This document shows, one piece after another, positions 53,701 to 62,476 of a stretch of DNA of 64,000 nt. The stretch covers positions 248,001-312,000 of the forward strand of contig JBCBSM010000001.1 in assembly GCA_039819165.1 (NCBI GenBank). The letters run 5' to 3'. Position 1 is the stretch's first letter, and each line of letters begins with the position of its first letter. Origin of the DNA: Planctomycetota bacterium (GTDB taxonomy: Bacteria > Planctomycetota > Phycisphaerae > Phycisphaerales > UBA1924). Made by a program: the position numbers and the translations under genes. The notes under the pieces were generated by a model. That model was not told where the DNA came from. It was given only the letters and a program-made list of their open reading frames with translations, and made no database searches.

Positions 53701-53923
53701 GATGCTCCTCCGCGGGTGACACGTCCCCGGTTGGTTCCCGGGCATTGTTGGGCGTCGGCGGCGCTGATTGCGGATGGGCCCCGGTCGGTCCGAGAATGAC
53801 CGGTGCCGACGGGTTTTTCGGCTATGCTCTCCGAAGAGGCGGAGCTTGGGTCCGCCCGGCACGGATTTCCGCGGCGATCGGGCATTCCGCCGGCCGCAAG
53901 CATCACCAGCAAGGGGGTACCCG

Positions 53924-54649
53924 ATGACCTGCAAGACGACCGCGGCACTCGCCGGCGTGGCGCTCGCCGCGACGGCCGCCCAGGCCCAGTTCGATGCCTT
54001 CGACGACCGGGTGGCGTGGGAAGACGCCGCCGGCGGCGTGGTCGAACTCGAGGACTTCGACTCGTTCGACATCGGCAGCCTGCAGCCCTCCCTGGGAGAC
54101 ATCCCGTTCGAGGGCGGCGTGCTGCGGGTCGAGGGCGTGGATTCCACCACGGGCGGACCGGCGATCGACGGCGGCGAGTTCCAGGGTTCCATCTTCCCGG
54201 CGACGGGCCACACCGCTTACGTGTTCACCTTCGACACGCCCATCAAGGCGTTCGGCTGGGACACCTTCGGCGCGGCAACGGGCATCGGCATCGCCATCGA
54301 GACCGACGCCGGGGTCGTGGACATCTTCGACTTCTTCACCGGCACGGGCGACTCGTTCCTGGGATTCGTCGCCACGAGTCCGGTGACCGAGGTCCGCATC
54401 GTCGAGTCACCCAGCTTTGGCGGCACGGCCGTCGGAGAGATCTTCGAGGCGGACAATCTCGTCTTCGTGAGCGGCGAGCCGTGCATCCCCGACTTCGATC
54501 TGGACGGCGAGCTGACCATCTTCGACTTCCTGGCCTTCCAGAACGCCTTCGACGCCGGTGATCTGATCGCCGACCTCGACGGCGACGGCGAGCTGACGAT
54601 CTTCGACTTCCTCGAGTTCCAGAACCTCTTCGACGTCGGCTGCGAGTAA
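53924..54649 (+). CDS. Secreted protein with C-terminal GC-type dockerin domain
   Basis: 241 residues. Signal peptide (T-A-A-L-A-G-V-A-L-A-A-T-A-A-Q-A-Q), a 150-residue beta-rich domain (T-A-Y-V-F-T-F-D-T-P-I-K-A-F-G-W-D-T-F-G resembles lectin-like domains that planctomycetes carry, only loosely), and two C-terminal dockerin-like repeats (P-D-F-D-L-D-G-E-L-T-I-F-D-F-L and A-D-L-D-G-D-G-E-L-T-I-F-D-F-L) bounded by Cys and ending V-G-C-E. An AAGGGGG precedes ATG 53924. Divergent from the MacA-like gene; terminator downstream. Confidence 0.85.
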   Translation: MTCKTTAALAGVALAATAAQAQFDAFDDRVAWEDAAGGVVELEDFDSFDIGSLQPSLGDIPFEGGVLRVEGVDSTTGGPAIDGGEFQGSIFPATGHTAYVFTFDTPIKAFGWDTFGAATGIGIAIETDAGVVDIFDFFTGTGDSFLGFVATSPVTEVRIVESPSFGGTAVGEIFEADNLVFVSGEPCIPDFDLDGELTIFDFLAFQNAFDAGDLIADLDGDGELTIFDFLEFQNLFDVGCE

Positions 54650-56218: not shown

Positions 56219-57295
56219 ATGAGGCAAAAGCGAAGCCAGGGACCGACTCCGCTGGAGCAGGCTCGCCGCCGGCAGCACGCCGGCGCGTCCAGCCCGGGTG
56301 TCGTCGCGCGCGGAGCGCGGCGTCGGCTGAGCCCTGAGGACGAGCGGCTGCTCGACCAGATCATGGCCCAGGAGATGGACTACATCGACAGCCCGGCCTT
56401 CTACGAGGAGAAGGCCGAGGACCAGATCTACGACGAGGCGCCCGACATCCAGAAGCCCGACACCGCGTGGTACCACCCGGTGATGGACGACCTGTCGGCC
56501 ACGCGGACCCGCACGGTGAAGAGCAGCCAGCAGGTCATCCTGACGGCGGCGGAGGAGAAGGTCCTCTTCCACCAGTTCAACTACGCGCGGCACCGCGTGT
56601 GGATGCTGCAGGAAGAGGTCTGGAAGAATCCGAACCGCAAGCCGACGCCCGAGCAGGCCGAGGCGATCCTGTACTGGTATCGCAGGGCCGATCGCATCCG
56701 CGAGCAGATTGCCGAGACGAACCTCGCGCTGGTGCTGGCGATGGCCAAACGCACCCGCATGAGCGAGGTGGACTTCGCCGACCTGGTCAGCGAGGGCAAC
56801 ATGGCGCTGCTGCGTGCCGTGGACAAGTTCGACGCGGGCCGGGGCTACAAGTTCTCGACCTATGCGTGCCGAGCGATCCTCAAGGCCTTCAGCCGCCAGG
56901 GCATGAAGCTGAGCAAGTACCGCCAGCGCTTCCCGACGGACTTCGACCCCAAGCTCGAGAAGTCCAACTTCCTCGAGACCAAGCGGGCCGACTTCGAGCG
57001 GGATGCCGCCGAGGAGGTCAAGCGGATCGTGATGGATAACCGCGCCGACCTCACCGATGTCGAGCGGACCGTGATCGAGCACCGCTTCGGGCTCGAGAGC
57101 GGCGAGGAGAAGCCCATGACCCTCGAGCAGGTCGGCCAGATCATTGGCGTGACCAAGGAGCGGGTGCGGCAGATCCAGAACAAGGCCATGGAGAAGCTCC
57201 GCGTGGAGCTGGAGGCCAACTTCCTGGGCGTCAATCCCGAGCCCGAAGCCGAGGAGCAGGATGCCGAGGCCGGCGAGGTCGCCCCGGTGGCCTAG
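56219..57295 (+). CDS. Divergent sigma-70-family RNA polymerase sigma factor
   Basis: 358 residues. Region 2 (about 165-225) has E-T-N-L-A-L-V-L-A-M-A-K-R, D-F-A-D-L-V-S-E-G-N-M-A-L-L-R-A-V-D-K-F-D and G-Y-K-F-S-T-Y-A; region 4 (about 280-330) has T-L-E-Q-V-G-Q-I-I-G-V-T-K-E-R-V-R-Q-I-Q-N-K-A-M-E-K-L-R. The Trp-Trp pair of housekeeping factors (T-W-W-I after S-T-Y-A) is C-R-A-I here, and no normal region 3 separates regions 2 and 4. It should still bind core polymerase and a -35-like element. Long acidic N- and C-terminal parts flank. ATG 56219 follows GAAGGGA. Regulon unknown. Confidence 0.88.
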   Translation: MRQKRSQGPTPLEQARRRQHAGASSPGVVARGARRRLSPEDERLLDQIMAQEMDYIDSPAFYEEKAEDQIYDEAPDIQKPDTAWYHPVMDDLSATRTRTVKSSQQVILTAAEEKVLFHQFNYARHRVWMLQEEVWKNPNRKPTPEQAEAILYWYRRADRIREQIAETNLALVLAMAKRTRMSEVDFADLVSEGNMALLRAVDKFDAGRGYKFSTYACRAILKAFSRQGMKLSKYRQRFPTDFDPKLEKSNFLETKRADFERDAAEEVKRIVMDNRADLTDVERTVIEHRFGLESGEEKPMTLEQVGQIIGVTKERVRQIQNKAMEKLRVELEANFLGVNPEPEAEEQDAEAGEVAPVA

Positions 57296-57605: not shown

Positions 57606-58793
57606 ATGAGCGGTACAGAAACGTCAGTCAACGGCAGGACCGAGGTTGAGGAGCACGTGTCGCCCGTGCCGGGCCTCGACGGCAAGGACCACGATCCGCA
57701 CGCGACGCGCTTCGGCGAATTCCTGAAGGCGTGCGTGAAGTTTGCCGCCTCGGACCTGATCATCAAGACCGATCAGCCGCCCAAGCTGCGGATGCGTGGT
57801 GCGCTCAAGCCCCTGGACACCGCGCCGGTGACCATGGACGAGTGGCACCAGGTTATCGAGCACATCCTCGACGACGAGCAGAAGAAGGACCTGCAGCACT
57901 ACGGCCACGTCGATTTCGCGTACGACTACAGCGACGACGCCCGCTTCCGCGTCAACCTGTTCCAGGCCCGCGGTCGCATCTCGGTGGCGGCCCGGCTGAT
58001 CACCAGCAACATCCTGCCCTTCGAGAAGCTGCACCTGCCCGACTCGATGGCCAAGATCGCCATGCAGCCGCAGGGCCTGGTGCTGCTCTCGGGCGTGACC
58101 GGCTCGGGCAAGAGCACGACGATCGCGTCAATGATCCAGTACGTGAACGAGCGCAAGCCCGTGCACATCCTCACGATCGAGGATCCGATCGAGTACATCT
58201 TCAATGATGACAAGGCGACCATCAACCAGCGCGAGATCGGCATCGACGTGCTGGACTTCAAGATCGCGCTGAAGGCCCTCGTCCGCGAGAATCCCGACGT
58301 CGTGCTCATCGGCGAGATGCGCGACAAGGACACCTTCGAGGCGGCCCTCAACGCCGCCGAGACCGGCCACCTCGTGTACGGCACCATCCACGCGTCGAGC
58401 ACCACGCAGACCTTCAGCCGCATCTACGGCCTCTTCGAGACCGAGGAGGTCGAGCAGATCCGCCGGATGCTGGCCTACCAGATGCGTGCGTTCGTCTACC
58501 AGAAGCTGCTGCCGACGCTGCACGAGAACATCCCGCGGATTCCGGGCATCGAGATCCTCATCAACGATGCCGTGGTGCAGAAGCACATCCTCGAGGAGCG
58601 CGAGGGCGAGCTGCGCGAGTACCTGAATTCCATCGAGGCGCAGCAGCAGGGCATGGTGGACTTCAACGCGTGGCTGGTGAAGCTGATCGAGGAGGAGTAC
58701 ATCCACCAGCGGATCGCGATGGAGGCGAGCCCCAACAAGGACGACCTGTCGATGCGGCTCAAGAAGTTCGGCGGGGCGTCGTCGAAGCGATGA
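57606..58793 (+). CDS. PilT/PilU-family hexameric ATPase
   Basis: 395 residues of the type IV pilus retraction ATPase family. Walker A is G-V-T-G-S-G-K-S-T (about 163-171); the Asp box is L-T-I-E-D-P-I-E-Y; Walker B is N-P-D-V-V-L-I-G-E-M-R-D (about 229-240); the His box is T-G-H-L-V-Y-G-T-I-H-A-S. All catalytic residues are present. In PilT families this motor depolymerises pilin or drives gliding. The two following genes are a degenerate relative and a membrane protein. No pilin, PilC or PilQ gene is in the window. Start ATG 57606 is chosen because earlier codons lie in a non-coding leader. Confidence 0.93.
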   Translation: MSGTETSVNGRTEVEEHVSPVPGLDGKDHDPHATRFGEFLKACVKFAASDLIIKTDQPPKLRMRGALKPLDTAPVTMDEWHQVIEHILDDEQKKDLQHYGHVDFAYDYSDDARFRVNLFQARGRISVAARLITSNILPFEKLHLPDSMAKIAMQPQGLVLLSGVTGSGKSTTIASMIQYVNERKPVHILTIEDPIEYIFNDDKATINQREIGIDVLDFKIALKALVRENPDVVLIGEMRDKDTFEAALNAAETGHLVYGTIHASSTTQTFSRIYGLFETEEVEQIRRMLAYQMRAFVYQKLLPTLHENIPRIPGIEILINDAVVQKHILEEREGELREYLNSIEAQQQGMVDFNAWLVKLIEEEYIHQRIAMEASPNKDDLSMRLKKFGGASSKR

Positions 58794-58853
58794 CCGGTGG
58801 CCGGGCGATCGACCGGCCGACCGCCTTCGGTGCGTGAATAAGGAACGCAGCTC

Positions 58854-60578
58854 GTGGATGCAACAAGCCTGCTCAACGCGGCCGCGCCGGCCGTCCTCCT
58901 CGCCGAGACCACGCCGTTCGTGCTGGTGTCCTGGTGGAAGGCGCTGCTCGTCGTGGCGACCTTTGCCGGGTGGGCGTGGTTCATCTCGACGGTCGCCGAC
59001 AAGCACGCCGCTCGCTTCTACCTCCCACGGGAGCAGTGGAACCTGGCGTACATGGTCACGGGCCTGCTCGCGATCGCGGTGATCCTGGCCAACCCGGTGC
59101 ACTCGATCTGGGGCTTCTTCGTGGCCTGGCCGGTCGCCGTGCTGCTGCTGGCGGTGCCGCCACTGGTCTACGTGCAGAAGGCCAACTCCGACGAGCGTGT
59201 GCCCGAGGAGCATCGCATCACGCTGAACATCAGCCAGTGGGCCGCCGAGCGCAAGGTCGCCAAGGAGGCCCGCAAGGCCGGCCGAGTGGAGCTGGCGATC
59301 GTCAAGCCCGACGGCGTCACTCTGCAGCCGCCCGAGCAGGAAACGCCCGAGTTCGTCGTCCGCACGACGGCCGAGAAGGTGTACATCGATGGCGTGTCGG
59401 CCCGGGCGCAGAAGATCGAACTGCTGCCGGCGGGCGACAAGGGCTACGCGGTCGCACACACCGTGGACGGCGTGCGGACCGTGGTGGGCGAGCCGATGGC
59501 GCCCGCCGAGGCGATGCGGGTCATCGCGTTCTGGCAGACGGCGTCGGGGCTGGAGGCGGGCGAGCGGCGGCGCCAGGTCGGCGAGCCCGACGTCTCGCGG
59601 GACGGCGACCGGCACCACCTGCGGGTGATTACGAGCGGCGGGCAGCAGGGCCTGAAGATGACCATCGTGGTGGACCCCGCCAAGTCGGTCCGCCGCACGC
59701 CGGAGAATCTGGGCTTGCTGCCCATGCAGATGCAGCTCATGGAGGAGCTCGCCGGGGAGGGCTCGGGCGTGGTGCTGCTGGCGGCGCCGCGGGGCATGGG
59801 CCGCACGACCCAGCTCTACACGGCCCTCAAGCTGCACGACGCGTACACCTCCAACATCCAGACGCTTGAGCTGGAGCCGCAGGACACACTGGAGGGCATC
59901 CGCCAGAACGTCTGGAGCCCGACCGCCGACGCGGCCGACCACGGCACGATGCTGCGGTCGATCATCCGCCGCGACCCGGATGTGGTCGGCGTCGCGGAGC
60001 TGCTCGACGAGGGCACCGCCAACGAGATCGCCCGCGGCGACACGCAGACCACCCGCGTCTATGCGAGCCTTGCCGCGGATTCCGCGGTGGTGGCGGTGGC
60101 CAAGTACGTGCAGGTCGTCGGCGACCCGGCGGCGGCCGCCGCCTCGCTCAAGGGCGTCCTGGCGGGCAAGCTCGTCCGCCGGCTGGCCGAAACCAGCCGC
60201 GAAGCTTACGTCCCAAGCCCCGACATGCTTAAGAAGCTGGGGCTCTCGGCGGATAAGGTCGGCACGCTCTACCGCCATCGCGAGATGGTCGAGGTCAACA
60301 AGAAGGTGGTGCCCTGCCCCGAGAGCGGCGGCACGGGGTACGTCGGACAGATCGGCGTCTTCGAGGTGTTCCGCATCGGCGATGAGGAGCGGGGGCTGAT
60401 CGAACGCAACGAGCTGCAGCAGCTGGGGGCGGCCTTCCGCAAGCAGGGGCTGCCGACCATCCAGCAGGCCGCCATCGCCCGGCTGGTGGAGGGCGTGACC
60501 GACGTGGACGAGGTGGTTCGCGTGACGGTTCCGGCCAAGAAGCCGCAAGCGGCGAAACCGGCGCCGGCCCCCGCCTGA
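58854..60578 (+). CDS. Membrane-anchored degenerate GspE/PilB-like protein
   Basis: 574 residues. Two or three N-terminal membrane helices (about 22-45, 63-80, 85-107) precede a GspE/PilB-type N-domain and ATPase fold. Features of the family remain: P-E-N-L-G-L-L (PxxLGL), L-L-A-A-P-R-G-M-G-R-T-T-Q at the Walker A position (about 308-320, the essential Lys being Arg), R-R-D-P-D-V-V-G-V-A-E-L at Walker B (R-x-D-P-D kept), and I-G-V-F-E-V-F-R (C-terminal motif). The tetracysteine zinc site of GspE/PilB is absent. ATP hydrolysis is doubtful; a structural or regulatory partner of the PilT-like ATPase is likely. Start GTG 58854 with AAGGA upstream. The tail is Lys/Pro/Ala-rich. Confidence 0.85.
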   Translation: MDATSLLNAAAPAVLLAETTPFVLVSWWKALLVVATFAGWAWFISTVADKHAARFYLPREQWNLAYMVTGLLAIAVILANPVHSIWGFFVAWPVAVLLLAVPPLVYVQKANSDERVPEEHRITLNISQWAAERKVAKEARKAGRVELAIVKPDGVTLQPPEQETPEFVVRTTAEKVYIDGVSARAQKIELLPAGDKGYAVAHTVDGVRTVVGEPMAPAEAMRVIAFWQTASGLEAGERRRQVGEPDVSRDGDRHHLRVITSGGQQGLKMTIVVDPAKSVRRTPENLGLLPMQMQLMEELAGEGSGVVLLAAPRGMGRTTQLYTALKLHDAYTSNIQTLELEPQDTLEGIRQNVWSPTADAADHGTMLRSIIRRDPDVVGVAELLDEGTANEIARGDTQTTRVYASLAADSAVVAVAKYVQVVGDPAAAAASLKGVLAGKLVRRLAETSREAYVPSPDMLKKLGLSADKVGTLYRHREMVEVNKKVVPCPESGGTGYVGQIGVFEVFRIGDEERGLIERNELQQLGAAFRKQGLPTIQQAAIARLVEGVTDVDEVVRVTVPAKKPQAAKPAPAPA

Positions 60579-60655
60579 ACAAGTATCACGAGACGGGACG
60601 TGCGTCGATCGCCCGTCCTGGTGCCCCCAGGACCCCTCCGCGGAGGATTCGAGCC

Positions 60656-62476
60656 ATGTTGGGAACCGCAATCGCACTCGTAGGCGTGCTGATCTTCACC
60701 TGGGTATGGGTCATCCGCGGCTTCTTTAGTGCGTTCCTGCACCTGCTGTGCGTGCTGGCAGCCGGTGCGGTTGCGTTCGCGGTGTACGAGCCCCTGACGG
60801 TGCTGCTGCTGACGCAGGCCCCCGAGCGTGGCATCGGGACCATCCTCCGCGATACCGCCCACGGCATCTCGCTGGGCGTCAGCTTCGCGGCGTCGCTCGC
60901 GGTGCTGCGGGCCCTCGTGGACAAGGCGGTGCCCGCCAACCTCAAGTTCAACGACACCGTGGAGTACGTCGGTGCGGGCGTGTGCGGCCTGGCGACCGCG
61001 ATCGTCACGATGGGCATCCTGACGCTGTCGCTGGGCATGATGCGATTCGGCCCCGGCACGCCGACGCAGACGCTGGTGTACACCGAGGAGGGCAGTGGCG
61101 CCCGCGGCAGCCTGGTCCGCAACACCTCGCCCATCCGCCCCTACGTCGACGAGTGGACGGCCTCCCTATACGAGTGGGCCTCGCGTGGGTCGCTGGCGAC
61201 CTCCCAGCCGCTGGCCCGCTGGCACCCCGACTTCCACGAACTCGGGTCGGCGATGCGGATCACCTACGACGGCAAGAGCCGCAACGCCTCGAGGCCCGAC
61301 GAGTTCGAGGTCGTCCGCTGGTACTCGCTCGGCAATGCCGAAACGGGTGGGCCCATTACGCAGCTCATGACCGATCGCTGGCGGGATACCCAGCAGCGGG
61401 TCATCGGGCTCGACGGCCGCGAAATCTCGCGGGGCTACCTCGCCGGCGTAGTGCTGAAGATGGATCCTTCGGCCCGCGAGATCAGCGCGGGCGCCAAGGT
61501 CGTCGTGGGCAACTCACAGGTGCGGCTGGTCACCGAGAACAAGGCGACCGGTGCGACCCGGGCGTACCACCCCTCGGCCGTCATCTCACAGGCCGAGGGC
61601 GACGATCCGTCGCTGGTGCGCTTCCGATACGACAGTGACGAGCTGTTCATTGCCTCGGTGGGCGGCAGCGGCGAGCCCGTCATGGTGTTCGAGTTCGCCG
61701 TCGAGCCGGGCTTCCACCCCATCGCGATCTACTTCCGCGGTGCGCGGCAGCAGCTCTCCGGGGAGCCCGGGGCCGAGTACGACAGCCCGGTGCAGCGCGA
61801 CAATGCGGTCGGCACGCTGGGCCTCGCGGCGATCAACCTGGCCGAGCTGGATGATTCCTACTCGGTCGAGCTGGCGACCACGCGGGGCCGGCAGGTCCTC
61901 CAGCCGGCCGACTACCACGTGTACTTGCAGAACGCCTTCGCGGGCCGCCGCACGACGCTCAAGAAGGGCCAGGAGCAGGGCCTCGAGGTCGAGCAGCTCG
62001 ATTCCCGGCGCGGCGGCTACGTGGTCGTGGGCGGCGTATCGCAGTTCCTAACGTCCTCGCTGCAGTCGGCTTTCGTCGAGCCCAATCTCCGCGTCGTCGG
62101 CTTCGCCGAACCCACCGACATCCGCACGGTGCAGGTCGACGTCGGCCGCGATTCGCCGCTCGCGCTCAACGGCCGGGTCTTCCAGGAGGTCTCGGGTGAT
62201 GCCGCCCCGGTGCTGGTCGACGACCGGGGCCAGGTCTATCCGCCCGTGGGCTATACCTGCCAGGAGGACCAGTACACCTACATCGGCTTCACGCCAGGCC
62301 AGCCGATCGCCCGGCTAGGGGCGCTGCCCTTCAACGTGAGCACGAGCAAGGCGACGCAGGACGTCCGCCTGGTCTATCGCGTGAGCACCCGGGTCAACGT
62401 GGTGGCGATGGTGGCGGGCGATAAGCTCGTGGCCACCTGGGAGCCGGGCATCGAGATCACCAGCCGGCGGCGCTAG
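60656..62476 (+). CDS. CvpA-like membrane protein with large extracytoplasmic part
   Basis: 606 residues. The first 130 form four membrane helices in the CvpA layout (L-I-F-T-W-V-W-V-I-R-G-F-F-S-A-F, T-V-L-L-L-T, I-S-L-G-V-S-F-A-A-S-L-A-V, G-A-G-V-C-G-L-A-T-A-I-V). The remaining 470 are soluble and beta-rich with no recognised domain; R-F-G-P-G-T-P-T-Q marks the junction. It would face the periplasm or outside. It follows the degenerate GspE-like gene by 77 bases and probably shares its transcript. Function unknown. Confidence 0.72.
   Translation: MLGTAIALVGVLIFTWVWVIRGFFSAFLHLLCVLAAGAVAFAVYEPLTVLLLTQAPERGIGTILRDTAHGISLGVSFAASLAVLRALVDKAVPANLKFNDTVEYVGAGVCGLATAIVTMGILTLSLGMMRFGPGTPTQTLVYTEEGSGARGSLVRNTSPIRPYVDEWTASLYEWASRGSLATSQPLARWHPDFHELGSAMRITYDGKSRNASRPDEFEVVRWYSLGNAETGGPITQLMTDRWRDTQQRVIGLDGREISRGYLAGVVLKMDPSAREISAGAKVVVGNSQVRLVTENKATGATRAYHPSAVISQAEGDDPSLVRFRYDSDELFIASVGGSGEPVMVFEFAVEPGFHPIAIYFRGARQQLSGEPGAEYDSPVQRDNAVGTLGLAAINLAELDDSYSVELATTRGRQVLQPADYHVYLQNAFAGRRTTLKKGQEQGLEVEQLDSRRGGYVVVGGVSQFLTSSLQSAFVEPNLRVVGFAEPTDIRTVQVDVGRDSPLALNGRVFQEVSGDAAPVLVDDRGQVYPPVGYTCQEDQYTYIGFTPGQPIARLGALPFNVSTSKATQDVRLVYRVSTRVNVVAMVAGDKLVATWEPGIEITSRRR

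Follow-up and report, generated by a model that had tools for sequence, protein, structure and literature searches.

The locus carries three adjacent genes, here called A, B and C, on the forward strand of a 64,000-nucleotide stretch of planctomycete DNA (the window; G000:C1:248001-312000), which belongs to a 3.14-Mb assembly of 35 contigs. A sequence-only reading had described them as an intact PilT-type motor, a membrane-anchored homologue without the Walker A lysine, and a CvpA-like protein with 470 extracytoplasmic residues of no recognized fold. The ATG of A, the GTG of B and all three stop codons were confirmed exactly, and their positions are listed with the other features in Table 1. 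Directly 5' of A, a sigma-70 type factor (regions 2 and 4) is encoded on the same strand at window positions 56222-57295, and a protein ending in two dockerin-like repeats (DLDGELTIFDFLAFQN ... DLDGDGELTIFDFLEFQN), judged by eye, is encoded at 53768-54649.

Table 1. Genes and features of the A-B-C cassette, in window positions
Feature	Position	Strand	Evidence
Gene A, PilT-family ATPase, 395 aa, motifs all intact	57606..58793	+	TIGR01420, own clade, dN/dS
Walker A of A, intact, GVTGSGKST	58092..58118	+	Translation
Gene B, membrane-anchored GspE/PilB-like pseudo-ATPase by motif, 574 aa, GTG start	58854..60578	+	PF00437, TIGR02533, monophyly, dN/dS
Three hydrophobic stretches of B, predicted to be membrane segments, residues 30-107	58941..59174	+	Hydropathy
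Walker A of B, degenerate, APRGMGRTT, Lys replaced by Arg at residue 317	59784..59810	+	Translation
Gene C, CvpA-like membrane protein, 606 aa, C-terminal region long	60656..62476	+	Adjacency to B, PF02674 in homologues, dN/dS
Four-helix CvpA-like membrane part of C, residues 2-126	60659..61033	+	Hydropathy; PF02674 at residues 7-129
Residues 135-606 of C, the C-terminal region, predicted beta-rich and extracytoplasmic	61058..62473	+	Positive-inside pattern; low-confidence model

The three proteins and their genomic setting

Gene A encodes a member of the PilT family and, judged by its motifs, an intact motor. It scored 372.7 bits against TIGR01420 (PilT/PilU), for which the curated cut-off is 319.1, and this score, together with the Walker A motif, bore out the earlier description. 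The Walker A lysine was kept in all 60 A proteins compared, and Walker A, the Asp box, Walker B and the His box were intact in 59-60 of them. In the tree, A formed a clade of its own, separate from the canonical PilTs of the same genome and from the other canonical PilTs sampled.

Gene B aligned with the whole of PF00437 (T2SSE) over residues 166-556, with a score of 107.9 bits (cut-off, 24.9). It fell far below the equivalog cut-offs of TIGR02533 (GspE; 152.1 of 630 bits) and TIGR02538 (PilB; 130.1 of 675 bits), and it scored 30 bits against TIGR01420. Hydropathy placed its three hydrophobic stretches all before residue 110. The domain match, the hydropathy and the degenerate P-loop agree with the view of B as a membrane-anchored homologue that lacks the Walker A lysine. 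Judged by profile and motif, B belongs by descent to the GspE/PilB superfamily and fails the defining catalytic features of that superfamily.

We tabulated the catalytic and structural positions of 60 B proteins from the class Phycisphaerae (class B). The Walker A lysine was kept in none of them, the replacements being R (19), V (18), L (15), I (4), T (2), M (1) and one other. Also largely lost were the Asp and Pro of the Asp box and both histidines of the His box (the first catalytic His was retained in 3 of the 60). The same holds for the RxR arginines and for the greater part of the Walker B signature. Positions of the fold were retained, with the last P-loop Gly and the Asp-box Glu present in all 60 proteins and the DG pair in 59, and each of the four zinc-site cysteines was found in 52-59 of the 60; in the window's own genus, three of these four cysteines of B are gone. 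Median dN/dS values in a genus-level set were ~0.12 for A, ~0.18 for B and ~0.23 for C, indicating that none of the three genes is decaying. The retained fold residues and the dN/dS of B suggest that it is a maintained pseudo-ATPase: class B is inactive by motif and under purifying selection. It might be argued that ATP use by B persists in an atypical form in which arginine, the commonest replacement, stands in for the lysine. We consider this very improbable, because V, L, I, T or M account for most of the other replacements and because the Asp-box Asp, both histidines and the RxR arginines are mostly lost as well.

The match of the window's C to PF02674 (Colicin_V) was weak, at 16.2 bits against a cut-off of 29.3, and C was the sole Colicin_V match in its genome. 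Among its class homologues, 41 of 44 matched PF02674 at E-values up to 0.1, the best being 1e-9. These matches and the four hydrophobic N-terminal segments support a CvpA-like membrane part. The ~470 residues that follow are predicted, solely from hydropathy and charge, to lie outside the cytoplasm, and this part of the earlier description accordingly keeps the standing of a prediction; the C proteins of the class extend some 230-650 residues beyond the membrane part. Searches of the C-terminal region found no Pfam, PDB-sequence or fold match, in line with the earlier statement that its fold is not a recognized one, and no protease family was found in the 44 C members or in C-terminal pieces of C. 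Structure prediction gave poor models of both B and C (mean pLDDT of 41.7 and 41.2, respectively), because only four close sequences were used for each. The secondary structure of the low-confidence C model predicted a beta-rich C-terminal region. A Foldseek search with that model returned nothing (best E, 0.05; probability, 0.08), and for these reasons no fold is claimed for the region. A two-repeat beta-domain in C was considered and set aside as too weak (internal HHalign E of 1e-4, but a probability of 27%).

The sequence-only reading had also held that platform protein and secretin genes were missing nearby and had called for a search for distant PilC genes. A profile search of the window found neither a PF00482 platform protein nor a PF00263 secretin, and, judged by platform protein and secretin, the locus belongs neither to a pilus nor to a type II system. 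The nearest PF00482 protein is encoded at C1:406 kb, ~94 kb downstream of the window. Ordinary gene clusters for pili or type II secretion, with PilB, PilT and PilC, are present elsewhere in the same genome, in which 13 T2SSE matches lay above the cut-off.

Conservation of the cassette in Phycisphaerae

Searches with B gave matches in all 198 class genomes sampled, and searches with C gave matches of low similarity in 148 of the same genomes. Since the best match in a genome was possibly not B itself, 63 loci from ~25 families of the class, stretches of at most 19 kb surrounding B or C, were taken for a comparison of neighborhoods. C was present in all 63 loci, and B lay directly before C in 62 of them, more often than chance would allow. 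In 44 of these 62 loci A was found immediately 5' of B, and two more (L093 and L130) showed the order A-X-B-C, where X is an ATPase fused to an FHA domain. None of the other protein clusters occurred in more than 13 of the 63 loci, so the conserved unit is the A-B-C cassette only; no pilin was conspicuous among the conserved neighbors of these loci. The gaps between genes on the same strand were short, with a median of 40 bp between B and C. Between A and B the median was 54 bp, from 44 measured pairs that include two X-B pairs. At loci L011-L013, B and C were 60-71% identical to those of the window. In the exceptional locus (L113:8079-9872, genome G095), C was found without an adjoining B and the upstream ORF encoded an unrelated membrane protein; the B-C pair appears to be split in this genome. 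The three genes are thus kept together in relatives throughout the class, which is the co-occurrence on which the sequence-only reading had staked its proposal.

B-C is the tightest pair; A accompanies it as a rule, though not obligatorily. In family f7 and in genomes G029, G166, G065 and G031, A was found away from B, elsewhere in the genome. Family f10 keeps B-C, but a search of five of its genomes yielded no gene of the A clade; the best candidates either grouped with canonical PilTs or were too divergent for placement. In many other planctomycete families, A-like ATPases are also encoded in the absence of B and C.

X consists of an FHA domain and an intact PilB/GspE-like ATPase. In the window's genome it is encoded outside the window, at G000:C1:210973-212679 (L164:7974-9680, minus strand). 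In several f7 genomes X adjoins A, and in two f7 loci it lies between A and B. Matches covering the FHA domain were found in only about one-fifth of 101 class genomes, which ruled out X as an obligate fourth component.

This distribution bears on an alternative explanation, namely that B and C alone constitute the functional unit and are served by any PilT/PilB-like ATPase, X for example, and that A is merely co-expressed with them and has an older job of its own. The explanation accords with B-C as the sole invariant pair, with the f10 genomes, with the solitary A-like genes of many families and with the insertion of X, a sister family of B, between A and B in f7. It accounts poorly for the placement of A directly 5' of B, which was seen in 44 of 62 loci spanning the majority of families in the class and, outside the class, in f55, f69, f89, f98 and some of f48; the patchy occurrence of X also speaks against it. 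We regard it as unlikely, yet it carries more weight than any of the other alternatives considered here.

Relatives of B outside the class and the fate of its ATP site

Genome searches covered Planctomycetota, and the start codons of distant homologues were set mechanically. Full-length membrane-anchored relatives of B outside the class were found in only five sampled families, f48 (12 of 12 genomes), f55, f69, f98 and f89 (B profile). As leads, we take f98 to be perhaps Thermogutta, and f48 and f89 to be probably Planctomycetia. The order A-B-C was found in f55, f69 and f98, and f89 contained A-B followed by a small C-like membrane protein. In f48 either B-C or A-B was found; some f48 genomes had A distant from B-C, and two had A-B but no detected C. 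The C proteins outside the class were only 185-250 aa in length and were without the long C-terminal domain, which is confined to the class.

The B proteins of f48, f55 and f69 had intact motifs (13 of 13 at nearly every site), including the Walker A lysine in all 13, and those of f98 and f89 were inactive by motif, like class B. The earlier claim of an inactive B holds among close homologues, with a qualification: no class B has a working P-loop, but the full motif set is present in the distant f48, f55 and f69. That the long domain of C is tied to the loss of B activity was rejected, because f98 and f89 pair an inactive B with a short C.

The B family was monophyletic (76 of 76; support, 0.98), and its closest relatives in the tree were the FHA-fused ATPases. 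On the evidence of motifs and gene order, B descends from an active membrane-anchored ATPase of the same cassette. The RpoB tree grouped f48, f98 and f89 in one clade (100) and the class in another (99), and these groupings, combined with the active B of f48, imply at least two losses of the ATP site. The B gene tree united all inactive forms (0.99), which probably reflects long-branch attraction. A single loss of the P-loop was set aside, since the RpoB tree places f89 and f98 with f48 and an AU test on B (p 0.41) gave no grounds to reject such a grouping. We prefer at least two losses, with the inactive state of B as the derived one.

The intact B proteins also weigh on the possibility that B, being an inactive homologue, regulates ordinary type IV pili by capturing or poisoning PilT/PilB rings at the membrane. 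The genome does contain several pilus or type II clusters with these motor genes, and lost catalysis would suit a dominant-negative role. B is active by motif in the f48, f55 and f69 cassettes, however, so that inhibition is unlikely to have been the ancestral role, and its invariant neighbor is a CvpA-like protein and no pilus gene. We give this possibility little credence.

Two further arrangements were observed in these searches. In f72 (L245 and L246), an A-like PilT has as its neighbor an active ATPase whose N-terminus is signal-like, and a CvpA-like gene was undetected; this is possibly a third form of the cassette. In L246, A shows up as two ORFs. In f48, FHA-like proteins, recognized by eye, are encoded on the opposite strand just upstream of A (L204:5642-6562 and L206:5915-6616, both on the minus strand), which hints at a link to phospho-threonine signaling.

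A candidate envelope machine

We compared the cassette with known systems that share parts of it. MarP-type proteins join a CvpA-like membrane part to a periplasmic protease; C has the same order, a membrane part and then a large predicted periplasmic part, but it lacks a protease family match and has ATPases as neighbors. In SpoIIIAA-type systems, a PilT/VirB11-like ATPase is used in a non-pilus membrane complex. The likeness lies in the idea that an ATPase of the motor fold can power a membrane complex that has no pilins; the partner proteins of the cassette are different. With GspE and PilB of type II secretion and type IV pili, B shares its alignment over the whole T2SSE domain and, in most of its homologues, the four-cysteine zinc site; it differs in the anchor ahead of the ATPase domain, in the lost catalytic residues and in a score of 152 of 630 bits.

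The PilT/PilU pair resembles the cassette in that A is a full PilT-family member and the genes for two related proteins of the motor fold are neighbors. PilU is functional only together with PilT (PMC6821130, PMC6762196) and is an active PilT-like ATPase in which the Walker A lysine is present (PMC6821130). B, in contrast, is GspE/PilB-like, membrane-anchored and inactive by motif, and platform and secretin genes are absent nearby. Full-text literature on planctomycete PilT, CvpA, GspE, FHA and pilus contained no description of the cassette that we could find; an essential-gene study of Planctopirus limnophila mentions a type II secretion operon, Plim_0401-0410 (PMC10632474).

C is like CvpA (PF02674) in its four-helix membrane part, and most C homologues match the family; it is unlike CvpA in that the window's C scores below the cut-off, the C proteins of the class are longer by 230-650 residues and ATPase genes adjoin C. 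CvpA is poorly understood, but deoxycholate resistance in enteric bacteria requires it, and it has been likened to small-solute exporters (PMC6705877). One could accordingly suppose that C is a CvpA-like export channel gated or powered by A-B, and that the cassette is a small exporter, for which the adjacency of ATPase genes to a four-helix membrane protein would speak. Transport by CvpA is unproven in that same paper, the long C-terminal region of class C would be left unexplained and no further transport gene is conserved with the cassette, and we find such an exporter rather improbable.

The interpretation that we favor, with confidence somewhat short of probable, is that the products of the cassette form an envelope complex that uses the PilT/GspE motor fold but has no pilus parts, and in which A docks on B and drives B-C. 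B, with a motor fold and an anchor but no ATP site, would act as a fixed receptor ring or scaffold at the cytoplasmic face of the inner membrane. Active A, or in some lineages perhaps another motor, would dock on B, and its ATP-driven shape changes would travel along the membrane helices of B and C and act outside the cytoplasm, where in Phycisphaerae the long domain of C would receive them. The sequence-only reading had suggested a hetero-complex of the motor and its tethered homologue that relays cytoplasmic force or ATP state across the membrane; we likewise infer the contact between A and B and the transmission of force or state, together with the ring form and any role in the envelope. 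B-C without A in f10, together with A-like genes without B and C, suggests that B-C may be the real core of this complex and A its usual motor. By analogy, a B that was once an ATPase, and that is still active by motif in f48, f55 and f69, fits a two-motor arrangement like that of PilT-PilU (PMC6821130), one motor of which later turned into a scaffold. It is possible, and again not quite probable, that the cassette represents a class-wide non-pilus machine with a PilT-type motor, a pseudo-ATPase receptor and a CvpA-like output, whose receptor lost its ATPase in parallel at least twice with the cassette kept.

The cassettes outside the class, in f48, f55 and f69, with their intact B and short C, are new, as are the at least two losses of the ATP site that they point to. 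To our knowledge, filaments and secretion are almost the only processes known to be driven by PilT/GspE-superfamily motor ATPases, and the cassette suggests a previously undescribed, ATP-driven, non-pilus machine of the cell envelope. The active and inactive versions of the same receptor in related cassettes make the change from enzyme to scaffold directly testable, and the poorly understood CvpA family gains a defined partner. Since the cassette occurs in nearly every sampled family of the class, it probably has an important role in the planctomycete envelope.
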